Notes under the pieces: generated by a model
The model's database searches: none
Told to the model about the DNA's origin: nothing
Seen by the model: the letters and a program-made list of their open reading frames with translations, nothing else
Shown here: positions 2,671-10,553 of the stretch, in pieces
Layout of the letters: each line of letters opens with the position of its first letter
Numbering within the stretch: the first letter of the stretch is position 1
Made by a program: the position numbers and the translations under genes
Source: Planctomycetota bacterium
GTDB taxonomy: Bacteria; Planctomycetota; UBA1135
Reading direction: 5' to 3'
DNA length: 64,000 nt
NCBI GenBank assembly: GCA_027623295.1
Contig: JAQBXR010000008.1
Location: 53,614 to 117,613 of the forward strand

Positions 2671-3153
2671 ATGCGAAAAGTATTTTCTTTGCTTATCACC
2701 CTGGGCCTAGTCGCTGCGCTTTGGTGCAGCCTCTTTTCCTGCACTAGCCTCCAAGGGGAGATGGCACCCCCATTGATGGGTGGAACGCAAGTCACCGATG
2801 GCCTCATTTTGGCCGATTCAGAAACGCCTCAAACCGAATGGCGACTACTCGCCTTTTTCAGCCCCACCTGAAGCCCTTGCGTGGCCGAAGTGCCGCATCT
2901 CGTGAAGATGCAAAAAGAGTTTGGTGGAGAAGATTTTTCCGTAGTTGGACTCATGCAGGGAAACGCTCAAGCAGCCAGCCAGTTCTCCCTTGCTCAGAAA
3001 CTGAACTATCCGATCTTCGCCAACAGCAAAGACTTCGACGCCTACGATGTCATGTTCTTGCCGGTCACCTACCTGGTGGACCCCTCTGGCATGATTGTGG
3101 CCGATGACCTTGACGATGCTGAAAAAATTCTCGCGCAACGCTCCGTCCGATGA
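2671..3153 (+). CDS. Thioredoxin-like redoxin lipoprotein with in-frame UGA, predicted selenoprotein (Sec67)
   Basis: Predicted 160-residue thiol/selenol redoxin. The ATG at 2671 follows GGAG and begins a lipoprotein signal ending in LFSC. The frame is interrupted once, by TGA at 2869-2871, then stays open to 3153. The junction reads F-F-S-P-T-(TGA)-S-P-C-V-A-E-V-P, exactly the thioredoxin/AhpC-TSA active site with UGA replacing the first Cys of C-x-x-C. Downstream sequence keeps the fold, including the cis-Pro segment MFLPVTYLVD. A hairpin at 2895-2911 fits a SECIS. Known family role: periplasmic disulfide reduction or peroxide removal; substrate unknown. The stop TGA (3151-3153) overlaps the next ATG (3150), so the two genes are coupled. 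A frameshift or dead gene is unlikely because the frame is unchanged across the TGA. Confidence 0.88.
2895..2911 (+). promoter_or_regulatory. Predicted bacterial SECIS hairpin of the redoxin gene
   Basis: A perfect 6-bp stem GCATCT/AGATGC closes a 5-nt loop CGTGA. The loop begins 29 nt after the UGA at 2869-2871 and has G at its second position. Bacterial SECIS elements are small in-frame hairpins just downstream of the UGA, with a G in the first two loop bases, so position and form both fit. Sec incorporation itself is inference. Confidence 0.75.
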
Positions 3154-4961
3154 ATAGCTGCACTCCACTTCTGCTGCTTAGCGCTTTGCTTTTTGCAAAT
3201 GGAACCGATGCTGTTGCACAAAACTCCACCGAAAAGATTCGTGAAACACCAAGCACACTTGCGCAGAGTGTTGGGTCAGGAGTGGAGTGGAGGACTGATT
3301 TATCAACCGCCATTGAGGATGCAAAAAAATCTAAGAAGCCCATCTTCTGGTATGTGCATACCTTGGAAGGCAGCTTCATGGATCGACAGCCAGAGGTGGA
3401 CCGCTACATGATGGGTGGTCCTTTTAGTTGGCCCGCCATGGTCCAGTTATTGAACGAAGATTACATCCCGTTGCGTTTAGCGGCAGACCGTAAGTTGTGC
3501 AAAAAATATGACCTTGCACCCGTACAGTTCATTGAACCTGGGATTCTAGTTTTGAGCTCTAGCGGAAAGGAACAATCACGCTTGGATCGCATTACCACCA
3601 TGCACCCTGGATGGTTTCAAACGCAGTTCAATCTCCATTTAGGGGAGGTTTCTAATTTTCCTGGAAGCTTGGGAGAGGAGCGGTGCCTTCAGTTTTACCA
3701 AGAGATTCCAGCTTCGGAAACTTCTCAAGAATCATTCTCTAAGGCGCTTGCCGAACTCGATTCAACCCATCAAGCGGAAGCCACTTGGCTATACGCCGCG
3801 GGCTTGCATGACTTGCGCAAGGAGCTTGCCGCACAGGAAGTCCTGAAGGGCATGCTGAATCAATTCCAACATCACCCGCTTGCTGCAAAAGCCGCACTTG
3901 AACTGGAAGGGCAAGGACCGTACTGGAGAGGGTTCGAATCTTACGATGCCATCCCATTGGAGGCACTTGCGGCAAACAATTCGGGAACGCTTGCACCTGC
4001 TGGCGCCTTCAGCGTGAAGGGTGTGGAAGAACGCTCCGTTGCGTTTTTGGCACGCACGCAGTCAGAAGACGGTGCCTGGCGCGACAGCATCTATGACTTT
4101 GGCGGCACTGACAGCATGCCCAATGTCTACGCTGCCGTCACTGCAATCAATGCACGGGCTCTAGTGGGGAAGGCCAACGCAAGCGAAACCCTGAACCGCG
4201 CACTGAAGTACTTGGCATCGGATGACATCTTGAATCTAGAGGATCAGGACGAGCTTATCTGGGCTTACCTCTACCGAATTCGTTTGTACTGCGCCATCCT
4301 CGAGCAAAAGGGTCCACCCGCCGAGGGCATCGACAAGCTGCTCAAGCACAACGTGAGTGGGCTGGTTGCCATGCAGGCCAAAAACGGATCTTGGTCCCAC
4401 GAATATCAAAATCCTTTTGTGACTGCATCGTGCCTAATCGCTCTATTCGACGCTTCTGGGAACCGTGCAGATCCGGAGAATTTGGAGGGCATCGTTAAGA
4501 GTGCACTAATTCCACTGGAGAATTCGCGCTCCAAAAAAGGTGCTTATAGCTACAACCTTGGCAACAGTAGCTCCCCTCTTGCGGGCAGTGTAGGTCGGAC
4601 TCCGGTTGGTGAGCTTGCGCGATACTTCTGGGGTGTGTCCAATAAGAAGGACCTTTCGAATGCGGTCAGCAATAGTTTTCGCGAGCAAGAGCCACTGTTC
4701 CTTGCACGCAAATATGACGACCACACCGACATGCATGCCTACGGCGGCTTCTTCTTTTGGTACTCCATGCTCGGACGCACCGAGGCGATTGTGGAATTGC
4801 CGAAAGGAAAACAGCGCGAGCAAGCCATCGCGCAACAACAAGAACTCATTCTTGCCTTGCCCGAGATCGATGGAGTCTTCATTGACTCGCATGAACTCGG
4901 GCGTAGTTACGGCACCGGTATGGCGTTGTGGTGCTTAGACTTACTCGCTGAGAAAGACTAG
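3150..4961 (+). CDS. Exported thioredoxin-fold plus cyclase/prenyltransferase-like repeat protein
   Basis: 603 residues with an N-terminal signal peptide (residues 1-23). Residues about 45-150 resemble a thioredoxin-fold domain (DLSTAIEDAKKSKKPIFWYV, then LNEDYIPLRLAAD), but the active-site position has H-T-L-E-G with no C-x-x-C, so redox activity through that site is not expected. The C-terminal two thirds are helical with repeated motifs (FLARTQSEDGAW, LVAMQAKNGSWSHE, YGTGMALWCLDLL) like squalene-cyclase/prenyltransferase alpha-alpha barrels. The start ATG overlaps the stop of the redoxin gene (ATGA), so they are translated together and may act together in the envelope. No catalytic function can be named. 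Confidence 0.8.
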   Translation: MNSCTPLLLLSALLFANGTDAVAQNSTEKIRETPSTLAQSVGSGVEWRTDLSTAIEDAKKSKKPIFWYVHTLEGSFMDRQPEVDRYMMGGPFSWPAMVQLLNEDYIPLRLAADRKLCKKYDLAPVQFIEPGILVLSSSGKEQSRLDRITTMHPGWFQTQFNLHLGEVSNFPGSLGEERCLQFYQEIPASETSQESFSKALAELDSTHQAEATWLYAAGLHDLRKELAAQEVLKGMLNQFQHHPLAAKAALELEGQGPYWRGFESYDAIPLEALAANNSGTLAPAGAFSVKGVEERSVAFLARTQSEDGAWRDSIYDFGGTDSMPNVYAAVTAINARALVGKANASETLNRALKYLASDDILNLEDQDELIWAYLYRIRLYCAILEQKGPPAEGIDKLLKHNVSGLVAMQAKNGSWSHEYQNPFVTASCLIALFDASGNRADPENLEGIVKSALIPLENSRSKKGAYSYNLGNSSSPLAGSVGRTPVGELARYFWGVSNKKDLSNAVSNSFREQEPLFLARKYDDHTDMHAYGGFFFWYSMLGRTEAIVELPKGKQREQAIAQQQELILALPEIDGVFIDSHELGRSYGTGMALWCLDLLAEKD

Positions 4962-4964
4962 CGA

Positions 4965-5597
4965 CTAACTGTCGTCAACTTCACCGGTGAGGGTGTGATT
5001 GCCAAAGCGATCCATAGAGACGAACTCTTCGAAGTCCAACAAACCCATCCGTGGACGAGCAGCAGTCAACGCTTTGCCCAAGGTAATCATCAGTAAGGGT
5101 GGGTGATCTTCTGGTAAGCCAACGATTTCTGCGACTTTCACCGGATCAAACCCAATCATAGGGCAAGTGTCGTATCCCATGTCCTTTGCCAACAGCATCA
5201 TGGTCATGCCGGCCAGACCAATCGTGCGCGCGGCTTCATCGCGCTGAATGGCGCCGTTCGAGTAAAAACCCGGAATCATGCCGCCGAACATTTCTTTCAC
5301 TGCGTCGGAAGCTTTACGCAGAGTGCGGTCTATGTTGGTGTGGCCATTTAGATTGCCCGCGCAAATAATCGTGGCTGAAGCGTCTTTCACCTGCGCTTGA
5401 TTCCACGCTGCTGCGCACAACTCATCTTGCACTGCCTGATCGGTCACCACTACAAAATGCCAGTTCTGCATATTGAAAGAGGTTGGGGTTAGAGCGACAT
5501 GAGCCATTAGATGGCGAATCTCGTCTTCACTCAGGCGATGTTCGGAATCGTAAGCCTTTACAGACCGACGTTGACGGAGGGCATCGAGCAATTCCAT
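4965..5597 (-). CDS. Nitroreductase family FMN oxidoreductase
   Basis: 210 residues matching the NfsB/RutE-type nitroreductase fold: N-terminal RRSVKAYDSEHRLSEDEI with the FMN-phosphate-binding Arg/Ser pair, then TPTSFNMQNWHFVVV, and a C-terminal GLPEDHPPLLMITLGKA. Enzymes of this family use NAD(P)H and FMN to reduce nitroaromatics, quinones or enals; the physiological substrate here is unknown. It converges on the cyclase-like gene with 3 nt between stops. No partner gene is coupled to it; the next minus-strand sequence is an epimerase remnant. Confidence 0.9.
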   Translation of the reverse strand: MELLDALRQRRSVKAYDSEHRLSEDEIRHLMAHVALTPTSFNMQNWHFVVVTDQAVQDELCAAAWNQAQVKDASATIICAGNLNGHTNIDRTLRKASDAVKEMFGGMIPGFYSNGAIQRDEAARTIGLAGMTMMLLAKDMGYDTCPMIGFDPVKVAEIVGLPEDHPPLLMITLGKALTAARPRMGLLDFEEFVSMDRFGNHTLTGEVDDS

Positions 5598-5606
5598 GGC
5601 GGCATA

Positions 5607-5837
5607 TTAGCGTTCCCGCTTATGCCACTTCTGCAGCACTTCCGCCTCTTTCTCGGCCTTCAAGCTGCCACCAAGCGCCTTCGGATGATCTTCCCAATCA
5701 AAGGTGTCACGAATGGTTTCGCCAGAGGGGCGATAAACCAAACCTGCAGCTACTGCTTTTTCAGAGTTGGAAGTGCTGTTTGGATAAGCCTCGGGAATCC
5801 ACAGCGGCATTTCTATCCAGCAAAAATACAAATCCAA
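5607..5837 (-). pseudogene. C-terminal remnant of an NAD-dependent epimerase/reductase
   Basis: An open frame of 76 codons contains LWIPEAYPN, KAVAAGLVYRPSGETIRDT and FDWEDHP. These resemble the last part of atypical SDR proteins, where a conserved (K)AxAAGLxFRPxxET stretch precedes the C-terminus. The Rossmann domain and everything upstream is absent: the frame meets a TAG just before this segment and nothing recognisable lies between there and sodC. The ATG shown would give only the tail. I read it as what is left after a deletion; a functional small protein is much less likely. Confidence 0.6.
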
Positions 5838-6042: not shown

Positions 6043-6603
6043 ATGAAAAAAATCGCACTCATCGCTGCCTGTGCAGCACCTCTTTTCGGCTCCTGCGTGG
6101 TAGCCGTCGGCAATGGCACCCACGCCAATGATTGGACGTACGACCTTGAGGTCGAGAAGGCCGTTTGCGTGATTCGCGGCACCGAGGGCAACGAAAATGT
6201 CACCGGCACGGTCACTTTCACCGAGCATAAAGACGGCGTTTTCATTGAAGCGCGCATTACCGGTCTCGCGCCGGGCGCACATGGCTTCCACATCCATGAG
6301 TTCGGTGACCTCTCGACCACCGATGGCAAGTCGGCTGGCGGGCACTACAACCCAGAAGGCCATGACCACAGCGGCCCTTCTTCCACGAAGCGCCACGAAG
6401 GCGATCTAGGCAACATTGTGGCCGATGCTAATGGGGTAGCTGAGTACTCGCGTTACGACGACGACCTCAATCTCGTCGGCAAGCACTCCATCCTCGGACG
6501 TGGTGTGATCATTCACGCCGGCGAAGATGACCAGCGCAGTCAGCCTACCGGTAATGCCGGCGCTCGCGTCGGTTATGGCGTGATTGGAATCGCTCAGCAG
6601 TAA
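6043..6603 (+). CDS. sodC: Cu/Zn superoxide dismutase, exported
   Basis: 186 residues with a signal sequence ending in a lipobox-like FGSC. Metal ligands of the SodC family are present: HGFHIHEFGD (two Cu His), GGHYNPEGHDHSG (bridging and Zn His), RHEGDLGNI (Zn His and Asp) and the late IIHAGEDD (Cu His). The active-site Arg region is GNAGARVGYG. It converts superoxide to peroxide and oxygen in the periplasm or at a membrane. Odd: the two Cys of the conserved intramolecular disulfide are missing. The first is Leu (FGDLS where FGDC is usual) and the second is Gly/Tyr (RVGYG where RxxCG is usual). The gene stands alone, with a preceding gap of about 205 nt. Confidence 0.96.
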   Translation: MKKIALIAACAAPLFGSCVVAVGNGTHANDWTYDLEVEKAVCVIRGTEGNENVTGTVTFTEHKDGVFIEARITGLAPGAHGFHIHEFGDLSTTDGKSAGGHYNPEGHDHSGPSSTKRHEGDLGNIVADANGVAEYSRYDDDLNLVGKHSILGRGVIIHAGEDDQRSQPTGNAGARVGYGVIGIAQQ

Positions 6604-6624: not shown

Positions 6625-7644
6625 TCAACGTAAATGAGCGGTGCTCCCTTGGGCACCGCTCATCCAATTCCCGTCGACGGCATGAAAGCCGGGCAACGCG
6701 GTGGAGAAGGGTGCCCAGTGCAAGCCGTCTGTAGAAACATCGGTGCCAGTTGGGCCTACTGCGATCCACTGCTTACGTCGCGGGTGCCAGGAAACTCCGG
6801 AGCGATATCCGGCCGGCATGGTCTCCGCAGCCTGCCAACTGAGACCGCCATCGGTGGTGCGCGCTGCAATCGTCAGCACCTGATTCTCTAGCTCATAATC
6901 ACCGCCCACCAGCACGCCGTTTTGCGCATCGCGGAAGGCGATAGAGAAGATCCCGCTGCCTGCAGTTCCGGCGGATAAAGGTGAGGCCTGAACCTGCCAA
7001 CTATGACCGCCATCGGTGCTGCGATAAACCCGTGCCACCGAACCACCTGTGGCAATCCAAGCTAGGTCTGCACCGGCCACCGCCAAAGAAGTGCCACTGG
7101 CAGCAAATGCGTACTCGCCATCGATGGCTTCGGGCAACCCAGCCACGGGAACCGGGGTCCAATGGCGTCCTCCATCTTCGGTACGGAGCACGGTGAGGCG
7201 GCCATCCACGGGATCGCCAACCAACAAGCCTCGGTCACGATTCCAGAAGGCAATGCCATCCCAGAAGCCCTCTGGCTCCTGATTGGTGGCACAAATTTCC
7301 CAAGAAATTCCTCCATTTTCGGTACGAAATACCCGTGATGCCCCTCCCGGACCGGCCGACATGAGCACGACCTCGTCCGCTGAGAAAGCTTCGATGTCAC
7401 GGAAATCGAGCACGTCATCGGCACTCAATTGAGGCGCACGGGAGATCCAAGTGCGTCCAGCATCGCGCGATACGGCCACGGAGGACTGACTTCCAGAAAC
7501 CCATGCGGTCCGGGAACCGACCTGGCTCAAACCTCGTAAAGAGGGAGCATTGGGAAGCTCATTTAGAACCGGTGCGGTCCCACAAGCGCTCAAGCCAAGC
7601 GCAGCTCCGGCAAGGCCCACCATCCTGAGAGTGCGGCAAAGGAG
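6625..7644 (-). CDS. YCF48/sialidase-like beta-propeller lipoprotein
   Basis: 339 residues from the ATG at 7644, chosen because it starts a lipoprotein signal ending LSAC; a longer frame to 7692 adds 16 unlikely residues. The body is a series of propeller blades with Asp-box-like motifs (SRDAGRTWIS, TENGGISWE, TEDGGRHWTP, STDGGHSWQV, TTDGGLSWQA). This resembles YCF48/HCF136-type and BNR-repeat proteins. No catalytic residues of a sialidase are recognisable. Known relatives act in membrane-complex assembly or are uncharacterised surface proteins; function here is unknown. It converges on sodC. Confidence 0.8.
   Translation of the reverse strand, partial: LLCRTLRMVGLAGAALGLSACGTAPVLNELPNAPSLRGLSQVGSRTAWVSGSQSSVAVSRDAGRTWISRAPQLSADDVLDFRDIEAFSADEVVLMSAGPGGASRVFRTENGGISWEICATNQEPEGFWDGIAFWNRDRGLLVGDPVDGRLTVLRTEDGGRHWTPVPVAGLPEAIDGEYAFAASGTSLAVAGADLAWIATGGSVARVYRSTDGGHSWQVQASPLSAGTAGSGIFSIAFRDAQNGVLVGGDYELENQVLTIAARTTDGGLSWQAAETMPAGYRSGVSWHPRRKQWIAVGPTGTDVSTDGLHWAPFSTALPGFHAVDGNWMSGAQGSTAHLR
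6634..6663. terminator. Hairpin between sodC and the convergent propeller gene
   Basis: An 11-bp perfect inverted repeat (ATGAGCGGTGC / GCACCGCTCAT) with an 8-nt loop lies 30 nt after the sodC stop and inside the last codons of the opposing gene. It has no T-run on either strand, so intrinsic termination is only a possibility; it may simply block read-through. Confidence 0.35.
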
Positions 7645-7659
7645 CATGAAAGAAAGTGA

Positions 7660-7687
7660 TTCGGGCAGCGTAAATACGCTGCCCGAA
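7660..7687 (-). terminator. Rho-independent-like terminator of the histone gene
   Basis: An 11-bp perfect stem (TTCGGGCAGCG / CGCTGCCCGAA) with a 6-nt loop starts 16 nt after the histone-gene stop on the minus strand and is followed by a pyrimidine-rich stretch (TCACTTTCTTTC). It separates the histone gene from the propeller gene. Confidence 0.65.
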
Positions 7688-7702
7688 AACACTTACAGCG
7701 AC

Positions 7703-7900
7703 TTATTTGTCGACTCCAAAGTCACGGTCCATGACCGTCTTACGCTTTCCCGACTCTGCGGTTGCGATGGCATTATCGCACATGGCGCGAATTAGCTCAG
7801 AAAGGCGTGCGGCAACGGCACCGGAGGTAGACATGCCAGACTTGGCCTTGATGTAGGCCTTAATCTTGGATTGTACGACGAGAACTTCTTGATTAGACAT
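7703..7900 (-). CDS. Bacterial single histone-fold protein (Bd0055-like)
   Basis: 65 residues from the ATG at 7900, which follows AAGGAG at good spacing; a longer upstream start is not needed. The sequence has the form of bacterial histones: VVQSKIKAYIKAKSGM, TSGAVAARLSELIRAMC, ESGKRKTVMDRDF. The RKTVM-x-RD end matches the RxTv/D loop and third helix of the histone fold, closely like Bdellovibrio Bd0055 as I recall it. Such proteins dimerise and bind DNA, and some bend or coat it. A terminator-like hairpin follows, so it is probably a monocistronic, well-expressed nucleoid gene. One Cys lies in the central helix. Confidence 0.85.
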   Translation of the reverse strand: MSNQEVLVVQSKIKAYIKAKSGMSTSGAVAARLSELIRAMCDNAIATAESGKRKTVMDRDFGVDK

Positions 7901-8044
7901 TGGGAGCTCCTTGAAAACGAAGATTGATGAGACCGTCTCCTTTTCCGTTTGGAGGCCATTAGGCAACAGCTCGTAAAAAGGGCGGGTGGACCAGTGTAGC
8001 AGCGAAATTCGGCTATGTGGCGGCTCAGCTAGATTCTGGCACGC

Positions 8045-9055
8045 CTAGAGCTTTTCCAATTGCACATCACGGGCACCCTCAAAGAAGGCCTTCCAGCGAT
8101 TTCCAAGCCAGGCCGTGGCTGGAACTTGCTCCAACTGTGAGCCTTTGAGTTCGCCAGCAAGGCACGTGCCGGTCATGCGAGACCACAGGCTGCCGGTCTC
8201 GAAATCGCGCATGAGAGGTTTGGCTCCTTCGGTTTCTGGATCGGCGGCAAGAGCCGCAAAGTGGAGTTGACGCTCTCCAATCTGACTACGAAAAGCCACC
8301 GCATAGACCGCATCTTGATCAAAGCAAACCACGAGCGGGGCATCGAGCAAAGTGGTGTCCAAAACCGGCAACCGACTGAGCAAGGAATAGCGGAACAGGG
8401 TGACGTTGCGCCCCTCCCCAACCGAAAGCCCGAAACTGGAAATCCGGTCCTTCAAGGTGAAGGTTCCCATCATGCCGCTCACCTTCTCGCCGAGCAGTAC
8501 GCCGGTGTCAGGGTGGCGCTTTTTCCAAGTCTTGTACGGCATGATCTCGGAAGGAATGAAGCCAAGCTTTTTACCTTTCAGCTCCCCCTTCAGGGCTTCG
8601 CCCGTCACATGCAACCATTTCGAATTGGTCTGCTTGTCATACATCATAAAGGAGTTACGGTAGAGCACGCCCTCGTGCCCGAAGTTCAAAACCTGTCCAT
8701 CTAGAGTGCGGCCATACACGATGGCCGTTTGGCAAAGCGGTCACCAACTCACCGCGACAGGAATTTCGCCGCAGGTGTCGTTGACTAACTCCACACCGCC
8801 CATGACCGAAATCGGATAGGCGCGCGCTTCCCCACCTAAGAAGAGGCCGATGACCGGTTCCTCGGGATCGATCTCGAGGCCAGTTTCCAGAACCGTGGCC
8901 ATGGGTGGATGATGCAAGACGGGAAACTGATCTGGCGCCATGACCTGACGCATTCCCTTGTCATAGTTGGCTTCACTGAACACATCTTCCGTCTGCGCGG
9001 AAAGTCCAGTAACGCTTGCCGCGGTAATAAAAAGAATGGTGGCGATGGAGCGCAT
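8045..9055 (-). CDS. DUF3179-family protein with in-frame UGA, predicted selenoprotein (Sec105)
   Basis: 336 residues from the ATG at 9055 (GGGA upstream, then a signal peptide ending GLSAQ). The frame carries one TGA, at 8741-8743, and is open on both sides with continuous family similarity: GGEARAYPISVMGG and VELVNDTCGEIPVAVSW before, then PLCQTAIVYGRTLDG, YRNSFMMYDKQTNSKW and RHPDTGVL after. DUF3179 proteins normally read V-x-[YW]-C-P-L-C-x-[ST]-x-x-x-[FY]; here UGA replaces the first Cys, giving U-P-L-C. A hairpin at 8709-8727 has the form of a SECIS. The family has no established biochemical function; a conserved C-x-x-C suggests metal or redox chemistry. It is exported. The next minus-strand gene is the histone. 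Confidence 0.9.
8709..8727 (-). promoter_or_regulatory. Predicted bacterial SECIS hairpin of the DUF3179 gene
   Basis: On the minus strand a perfect 7-bp stem CGGCCAT/ATGGCCG closes the 5-nt loop CGTGT, starting 20 nt after the UGA. G is at the second loop position. The loop differs by one base from that of the redoxin hairpin (CGTGA), while the stems share no sequence, as expected if SelB reads the loop. Confidence 0.8.
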
Positions 9056-9124
9056 GTGTCCCATCATAGGCCGCGAGACGTCTGTTTGACCATATTTTCT
9101 AGAAAACCACGAATTAGACCTTTC

Positions 9125-9553
9125 CTAATGCTCTTGTGCGGGGTACAGCACGCGATAAAGCGTACGCACCTGCTTTGGGTCCAAAGTGTTACGCACCTGC
9201 AGCAAAGTTTCGATGTTGTTATCGACTTCCTTATTCCGCAGCTCGCACAGCTTGGCCGCCAATGCCTTTACCTGCTTTTCGTCCATGACTTCGGCGGAAA
9301 GGGCAATCCGCAACTCATCGCTCACGGTCTGAGTATCGCGACGTAACTCATCTGCAGCATCACAGCATGCTATGCCGCAGCGATTCAGCACCCCGATTTG
9401 TGCAGGGCTGAGGTCCAGGTCTGCGTATTGCGCCGGCGGATCAACCTTGACCTGGGTCGATGCCTGGGTCGGCTTTTGGTACTGCACAACATTCAAAGCA
9501 AGGCTCGCGAGGAATGCGCCTCCCATAAAAACGATCAGATACTTCCTAACCAT
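9125..9553 (-). CDS. CnrX/CpxP-like periplasmic sensor, membrane anchored
   Basis: 142 residues from the ATG at 9553, which shares its A with the upstream stop (TAATG). An N-terminal TM/signal (VRKYLIVFMGGAFLASLALN) is followed by a helical domain with an LSPAQIGVLNRCG segment, a Cys-rich stretch (RCGIACCD) and an LDPKQ motif near the end. This resembles Spy/CpxP and CnrX metal-sensor proteins. It is the third gene of an ECF sigma, anti-sigma, sensor operon, the arrangement seen in CnrYXH-type metal responses. Likely role: bind metal or an oxidant in the periplasm and tune the anti-sigma factor. The ligand is not determinable, though its Cys residues are candidates. Confidence 0.65.
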   Translation of the reverse strand: MVRKYLIVFMGGAFLASLALNVVQYQKPTQASTQVKVDPPAQYADLDLSPAQIGVLNRCGIACCDAADELRRDTQTVSDELRIALSAEVMDEKQVKALAAKLCELRNKEVDNNIETLLQVRNTLDPKQVRTLYRVLYPAQEH

Positions 9554-9981
9554 TAGTTCGCCTCGTTGTTGGAGATGTAAGTCGCCAAAGTCACTTCCGG
9601 CCAAGGAGTGCTGTTCTGCAAGCCATCGACGTAGGCTGCTGGGTCATGCACCAAAGGCACTTCCTGACGCAGATGATCCACCAGATGCAAACCGCCCGCT
9701 GCGAGACTAGTTTTCACGGTACCGCCCGCGGTGCGAGTGACCGCTTGCTCTAGGCCGAAGAACACTAAGAAGCCAAGCATGCCTGCTGCGGCAAAGCGCA
9801 AACGGCTTTGGAAGCGTGAAACCCCTCCAAGAATTGGCGCCCCAGACTCATCCTGGGAGACCGTGAATTGAAACCTCAAAATTGCAGCTTCTTCAATGCG
9901 CTGCCACAGCCCTTCTGGGGCAGTCGGCGCATGCAGAACTTGACGCTCTTTTGAGTTGAGAATTTGGTCTTTAGGTTTCAT
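9553..9981 (-). CDS. Probable anti-sigma factor, single-pass membrane protein
   Basis: 142 residues. A cytoplasmic N-terminal part (MKPKDQILNSKERQVLHAP) is followed by one TM helix near residues 63-82 (LRFAAAGMLGFLVFFGLEQA) and a periplasmic tail. I do not recognise a zinc anti-sigma motif. The call rests on position: its start overlaps the stop of the ECF sigma gene by ATGA, and its stop overlaps the start of the sensor-like gene. Inference: it holds the sigma factor inactive at the membrane until the sensor signals. Confidence 0.6.
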   Translation of the reverse strand: MKPKDQILNSKERQVLHAPTAPEGLWQRIEEAAILRFQFTVSQDESGAPILGGVSRFQSRLRFAAAGMLGFLVFFGLEQAVTRTAGGTVKTSLAAGGLHLVDHLRQEVPLVHDPAAYVDGLQNSTPWPEVTLATYISNNEAN

Positions 9982-10553
9982 TCGTTCATCACTCCTAAAT
10001 CAATGGCGGAGCCTGAGGCAAGTTGGCGAAACTTATCTCGTGCGCGAGAAAGGCGAGACATGACGGTGCCTTGAGGGAGGTCAAGGATTTCACTGATCTC
10101 GCGGTAGCTGAAATCTTCCACTTCGCGGAGGAGGAAAATCGTGCGTGCCTCTTCGGGCATGCGTTTGAGGACATCTTGCACCAAAGCGACGGTTTCCTGC
10201 TGCTGCAGGCGTCCGCTGCCGTCGACCATAGAAGTTGGAGCAGCCTGCGGAAGCGCATCCAGCGAAGTCGCGGACTTGCGCTTGCGGCTCTTCAGTTGGT
10301 TCAGGCAAAGGTTCACGGTAAGGCGATGAATCCAGGTGGATACCTGACTCCGCCCAGCGAAGGTTCCGGCTTTGGCAAAAACGCGCAAAAACACTTCTTG
10401 AGTGGCATCTTCGGCATCTGGTTGGGAGCCGAGGACGTTTAAGCAAAGACGATAAACCTTGTCACCGAAGAGTTCAAAAAGCACACCCAGAGCCTCAACG
10501 TTGCCTAGTTGGCAGCGTTTTAGTGCTTCGGTTGCTTGTTGGTCGTCGGTCAC
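9978..10553 (-). CDS. ECF-type RNA polymerase sigma factor
   Basis: 191 residues with sigma-70 region 2 (DKVYRLCLNVLGSQPDAEDATQEVFLRVF, given here as a span of about residues 29-60; key DAEDATQEVF) and region 4 (LLREVEDFSYREISEILD then GTVMSRLSRARDKFR). Region 1.1 and region 3 are absent, as is normal for ECF factors. First gene of a three-gene operon with the probable anti-sigma and sensor proteins. It directs polymerase to stress promoters, often including its own. No promoter was identified with confidence in the 260 nt before the start. Confidence 0.93.
   Translation of the reverse strand: MTDDQQATEALKRCQLGNVEALGVLFELFGDKVYRLCLNVLGSQPDAEDATQEVFLRVFAKAGTFAGRSQVSTWIHRLTVNLCLNQLKSRKRKSATSLDALPQAAPTSMVDGSGRLQQQETVALVQDVLKRMPEEARTIFLLREVEDFSYREISEILDLPQGTVMSRLSRARDKFRQLASGSAIDLGVMNE

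Follow-up and report, generated by a model that had tools for sequence, protein, structure and literature searches.

The window analysed here, a stretch of 64,000 nucleotides from a draft genome of the Planctomycetota, contains on its minus strand a run of genes coding, in order, for an ECF sigma factor, a putative anti-sigma factor, a Metal_resist/LTXXQ-like protein, a DUF3179 protein, a histone-like protein and a YCF48-like protein. The features of this locus are:

9978..10553, minus strand: ECF sigma factor gene, upstream of DUF3179
9553..9981, minus strand: putative anti-sigma gene, named from its position and overlap only; no Pfam match
9125..9604, minus strand: upstream neighbour coding for a Metal_resist (28.6 bits, under the cut-off of 29.2)/LTXXQ (24.6 bits, cut-off 24.3) protein
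8045..9067, minus strand: predicted DUF3179 selenoprotein gene, with its start at 9067 or 9055 (340 or 336 aa)
8996..9055, minus strand: probable signal peptide MRSIATILFITAASVTGLSA, assigned by visual inspection of the sequence
8495..8857, minus strand: first Rieske-like repeat (residues 67-187), with the Sec motif, from predicted models and the internal repeat
8741..8743, minus strand: in-frame TGA at residue 105, predicted Sec, aligned with the conserved Cys
8709..8727, minus strand: SECIS-like hairpin of 7 bp with loop CGTGT, assessed by comparative tests
8063..8434, minus strand: second Rieske-like repeat (residues 208-331), with no CxxC, from predicted models and the internal repeat
7703-7903, minus strand: small histone-like protein matching the bacterial histone-fold structures 9qt0 (E 2.3e-9), 8cmp and 8fvx
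6625..7692, minus strand: downstream neighbour coding for a YCF48/BNR-repeat protein, kept in the genus

Translation of the minus strand from 9055 to 8045 with TGA read as selenocysteine (U) gives a protein of 336 residues that has a single in-frame TGA (8743-8741), located within VSWUPLC, and ends in a normal stop codon; an in-frame ATG at 9067 provides an alternative, upstream start. The Pfam profile of the family (PF11376) matches this joined protein with 190.7 bits against a cut-off of 27, and the best stretch (residues 42-187) runs across the TGA, with U at the conserved first Cys of the C-P-L-C motif, which accordingly reads U-P-L-C. The original prediction had placed the gene at 8045..9055, correctly though with no mention of the strand, and had proposed that the TGA replaces the hallmark Cys in V-S-W-U-P-L-C with family similarity continuing on both sides. 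Our TGA-as-U reading, the alignment with relatives and the Pfam search bear out each of these points. The Pfam search found no thioredoxin domain in the window protein. No NCBIfam model matched it, none of the PDB chains showed sequence relatedness to it, and no Rfam family was found within the 64-kb window at gathering scores. As for its surroundings, the histone-like gene is kept beside DUF3179 in two relatives from the genus, and a Cu/Zn superoxide dismutase gene lies on the opposite strand (window 6043-6603, plus strand), such a gene being near DUF3179 also in another genome (G003).

The in-frame TGA, its hairpin and the Sec machinery

A profile search recovered DUF3179 in 138 of the 392 genomes of the phylum; a separate scan of genome contigs yielded at least one DUF3179 locus. 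Our row counts are based on the 150 DUF3179 rows among the matches listed, which cover 120 of these 138 genomes. Among these listed matches exactly one TGA is seen in 62 rows from 52 genomes, none in 86 and a TAG in two. Every one of the 57 TGA copies inspected, the window copy included, has the TGA as the first residue of the motif; homologs with TGA at the same place, the search for which had been proposed along with the original prediction, are thus abundant, and a chance TGA is excluded by this constancy. The motif reads UPLC in 27 of these copies, UVIC in 6, UPLA in 5, UPLT in 4, UVVC in 4 and otherwise in 11. At its fourth residue 46 copies have C, 6 have A and 4 have T, with one copy unread; A or T thus occupies this position in 10 of the 56 readable Sec copies. 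The invariant columns of alignment A2 (57 rows) comprise one Cys/Sec and two Gly. Ser is found at the first Cys in one of the 42 rows of alignment A1 with a letter at that column, and a DUF3179 member in G291 (L157) has H-P-L-S instead of C-P-L-C; some members may therefore do without the first Cys. The possibility that UAG might also encode Sec was rejected, since neither TAG row carries TAG at the motif residue: in G291 the TAGs lie beyond the end of the HPLS variant and in G272 the TAG is elsewhere in the protein.

Downstream of the TGA, 13 nucleotides are followed by CGGCCAT, the loop CGTGT and ATGGCCG, such that 8727-8721 pair with 8715-8709. The perfect 7-bp hairpin and its loop are hence as originally described, but the distance of 20 nt given for its start needs correction, because the stem begins at the 14th nucleotide downstream of the TGA, and 20 nt separate the TGA from the loop. 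When the best stem at about the usual position was compared with synonymous resampling, the mean z was -2.62 for 56 Sec copies (of 57, one copy with an N having been dropped) and -0.14 for 26 Cys copies, with p 0.05 reached by 34 of the 56 and 2 of the 26, respectively. Mean stem energies were -9.63 kcal/mol for Sec and -2.28 kcal/mol for Cys copies (Mann-Whitney p 1.4e-9, an optimistic value as the sequences are related). The window copy taken alone gave p = 0.047 by synonymous resampling, and by folding energy alone its 54-nt hairpin region was no better folded than its shuffles (z -0.01). In a set of 43 copies (41 distinct), 92.7% of the cells are paired, as against a shuffle mean of 68.3% and none of 500 shuffles reaching the observed value; versions of the stem slid along the alignment are at most 42.2% paired, and both sides change in all seven pairs. 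This set was drawn from the 56 copies, the 13 omitted being the UVIC and UVVC classes and three PNYUPLC copies, mostly with different loop letters. Across all 54 distinct Sec copies each of the seven pairs is formed in 37-51. By these sequence comparisons the hairpin has the behavior expected of a bacterial SECIS, and most of the 26 Cys copies are without it.

A tree of 80 rows (55 Sec, 25 Cys), which was prepared without short or broken loci, needs 6 changes between the Sec and Cys states versus 21.5 in shuffles. Four CPLA rows form a Cys clade that is nested, next to a UPLA row, in a clade consisting mostly of Sec forms; this arrangement suggests a Sec-to-Cys reversal. One of the four (L036 in G317) has a 10-pair hairpin (-11.6 kcal/mol) at the SECIS place though its codon is for Cys, and this hairpin is possibly a relic of such a reversal.

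The genome from which the window derives has selA (472.4 bits), selB (284.9 bits, cut-off 242.25; 640 aa), selD (303.2 bits) and, 45 nt downstream of selD, a tRNA-Sec with anticodon TCA (71.0 bits). Hence selB and tRNA-Sec, whose absence would have counted against selenocysteine, are both found alongside selA and selD. The selD gene (L154:198-1374, G000 contig 24) is a selenoprotein gene itself, with an in-frame UGA of its own in SSGUAAK. Among the window genome and 60 relatives, selB scores above cut-off in 56 of 61 and tRNA-Sec likewise in 56 of 61. Taken together, the Sec machinery in the genome, the conservation of the TGA in relatives and the covarying SECIS-like stem make selenocysteine at the first Cys a well-supported reading of the sequence.

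The original prediction knew of no description of Sec in DUF3179. In this it was mistaken: table entries in two reviews (PMC9312934, as 'DUF3179 domain-containing protein, PF11376, UxxC/T', and PMC13188914, likewise with DUF3179/PF11376 as UxxC/T) credit Zhang and Gladyshev 2007, and the NCBI record of a planctomycete relative is named 'DUF3179 domain-containing (seleno)protein, partial [Planctomycetota bacterium]'. Going by these tables and this name, Sec in DUF3179 is already known as a kind.

A predicted duplicated Rieske-like domain

DUF3179 was found to contain an internal duplication, i.e. a tandem repeat, and the AlphaFold models (pLDDT 92-94) show a Rieske-like fold in each half, the Sec motif being confined to the first. 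Rieske clusters are held by the ligands C-x-H ... C-x-x-H. Of the columns of A2 (57 rows) that are invariant or almost so, none is a His. The Pfam matches of the 57 members include no Rieske family, the probability of profile similarity to Rieske proteins in hhalign is only 1 to 21%, and Foldseek by itself returned no significant structural match for the DUF3179 models. The structural matches listed include no thioredoxin fold. In one example of the structural alignments, residues 46-133 of a model are aligned with 38-129 of 4nbf, Sec being residue 66 of that model. We considered that Sec might replace a Rieske cluster ligand and did not keep this idea; the aligned ranges would put Sec in a turn about 10 residues before the first ligand. 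Weak profile alignments disagree on this point, one of them matching the motif to the first ligand box, another matching the corresponding site of the second repeat to the turn. What may be new for DUF3179, judging from the predicted models, is a duplicated Rieske-like fold without the 2Fe-2S ligands. In the full-text collection searched, DUF3179 occurs in only three papers, and the passages retrieved contain no treatment of its fold; a further literature search showed, among the papers listed, none on DUF3179 other than the two reviews. To our knowledge no duplicated Rieske-like model has been published for this family.

Thioredoxin fusions, gene neighborhoods and the proposed function

A search with the DUF3179 part of P0067 revealed 13 fusions to thioredoxin/redoxin domains among the best 120 matches, and all 13, two of which are archaeal by source name, keep WCxxC. 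As P0067 was picked because it is a fusion, this proportion does not represent the family as a whole; the search with the window protein had 2 fusions among the 120 matches listed. In P0090 the fused domains are in the opposite order, and P0133, a fusion from a Nitrososphaerales archaeon, bears the NCBI name '(seleno)protein' yet has a plain CPLC. A table in PMC9230427 assigns a DUF3179 protein of Idiomarina to the cytoplasmic membrane.

The likely signal peptide, the fusions, the nearly invariant Cys/Sec and the variable partner residue lead us to favor an exported enzyme with one essential nucleophile and a TlpA-like reductant. We put at roughly 70% the reading in which the TGA is read as Sec and the protein is likely to be an exported redox enzyme whose selenol is the single catalytic nucleophile. 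Under this proposal the UGA at residue 105 would be decoded as Sec and the protein exported; its selenol would then cycle between reduced and oxidized states with electrons from a TlpA/ResA-like thioredoxin, the kind of domain joined to DUF3179 in some relatives, and the residue at the fourth motif position (C, A or T) would only assist. The neighborhoods hint that the setting might be extracytoplasmic stress or metal(loid) chemistry. The full elaboration, in which a selenol/thiol redox enzyme on a duplicated cluster-free Rieske fold with a Sec/Cys hairpin and a TlpA-type partner acts in planctomycetes on extracytoplasmic arsenic or metalloids, is offered tentatively, and we think it rather unlikely to hold in all its parts.

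Three other accounts of the locus have to be weighed against this enzyme. That the TGA is a real stop or a different residue, as in a pseudogene, a sequencing error or another genetic code, is hardly credible. The assembly is indeed a draft (34 contigs, 87.8% complete), but a pseudogene or sequencing error is rejected by the occurrence of TGA at one residue in all 57 copies, besides the origin of the TGA rows among the matches listed from 52 genomes and the covarying hairpin; another code is rejected because TGA terminates 13 of the 37 non-overlapping ORFs of at least 200 aa in the window, i.e. acts as an ordinary stop. A quite improbable account takes the protein as the sensor of the ECF-sigma operon, with an exported Sec/Cys protein that is not an enzyme informing the sigma/anti-sigma pair of the redox or metal state. 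Consistent with it, all three genus neighborhoods retrieved (L132, L134 and L135) have homologs of the sigma and putative anti-sigma genes close to DUF3179, and two of the three have a Metal_resist-like homolog, simple gene picking in L134 having chosen an ORF on the opposite strand where that gene would lie; sigma and anti-sigma genes, along with arsenosugar genes, are near DUF3179 also in L131, which belongs to the family of the window organism. Nevertheless, a homolog of the window sigma factor is seen in only 8 of the 19 hand-chosen neighborhoods, in three of them at a distance of 2 to 4.6 kb, planctomycetes have many ECF sigma factors, and a sensor has no need of Sec.

The remaining alternative, which we regard as possible though doubtful, is a Sec-containing protein that binds or handles metal(loid)s, its selenolate binding or exchanging arsenic or a soft metal with no redox turnover. 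In its favor are the Metal_resist/LTXXQ-like and ECF sigma genes upstream in the window, and the arsenosugar-related genes that we named in the neighborhoods together with homologs of the window genes and 20 hand-picked neighbors. In 5 of 60 placed genomes with both, an ArsS-type gene (PF12345) is found no more than 6 kb from DUF3179, where genes placed at random in genomes several Mb in size would by our estimate give well under one such case; those in L131, L140 and L141 are confirmed by TIGR04167 (arsenosugar ArsS), and TIGR04282 arsenosugar glycosyltransferases are beside DUF3179 in L131 and L137. At the level of whole genomes, PF12345 occurs in 66 of 138 DUF3179 genomes versus 67 of 254 others (odds ratio 2.6, p 3.2e-5, with kinship ignored; one of the 133 PF12345 genomes is under the family cut-off). 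Against this alternative, the window genome has its ArsS-type gene on a different contig from DUF3179, so that the window itself lacks a position beside arsM/arsS genes, and 55 of the 60 genomes have no ArsS-type gene that close, in some cases hidden by contig breaks. Moreover, 10 of 56 Sec copies have A or T as the partner residue, unlike a chelating Cys pair, and the thioredoxin fusions suggest redox. The originally proposed activity, 'redox or metal active through that thiol', is accordingly plausible, with redox favored over chelation by a Cys pair on account of the variable fourth residue and the fusions, and arsenic or metalloid chemistry of DUF3179 is a lead and not a result. L137 also has, at 3132-5738 (plus strand), a fusion of radical SAM/SPASM and arsenite-methyltransferase-like domains, two genes before its Sec-DUF3179.

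DUF3179 is a large family of uncharacterized function (at least 7410 matches among 7996 scored candidates), and its sources among the matches listed include Nitrosopumilus and other archaeal names. In this family the Sec forms single out one residue as reactive, the duplicated Rieske-like model would furnish a structural hypothesis, and the thioredoxin fusions and arsenosugar neighbors provide two functional leads that suggest assays; the natural Sec, Cys and fourth-residue variants and the proposed Sec-to-Cys reversal are material for testing the contribution of Sec. The Sec reading is very likely correct, though known as a kind, and the value added here lies in the structural hypothesis and the two functional leads.

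Comparison with known systems

The closest precedent is the DUF3179 selenoprotein of an Olavius algarvensis symbiont credited to Zhang and Gladyshev 2007, which, as far as the table entries allow comparison, shares the Pfam family and the U-x-x-C/T motif with the window protein. The planctomycete protein with the '(seleno)protein' name (P0038) has 56% identity over 62% of the query, in a partial record without the motif region. The Cys-form DUF3179 protein P0012 (332 aa; 49% identity over 96%) has CALC, with Cys where the window protein has Sec. The fusions (P0067, P0122-P0128, P0131-P0134 and P0140) combine DUF3179 with CPLC and an intact WCxxC thioredoxin domain; these are Cys forms only, whereas the window protein has Sec and no thioredoxin domain. 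At the level of predicted structure, Rieske ferredoxins and NirD (2qpz, 3c0d and 5cxm) have a fold that each half of the DUF3179 models appears to resemble, but Rieske proteins possess 2Fe-2S ligands, whereas DUF3179 appears to be a tandem duplication of such a domain without conserved ligands.
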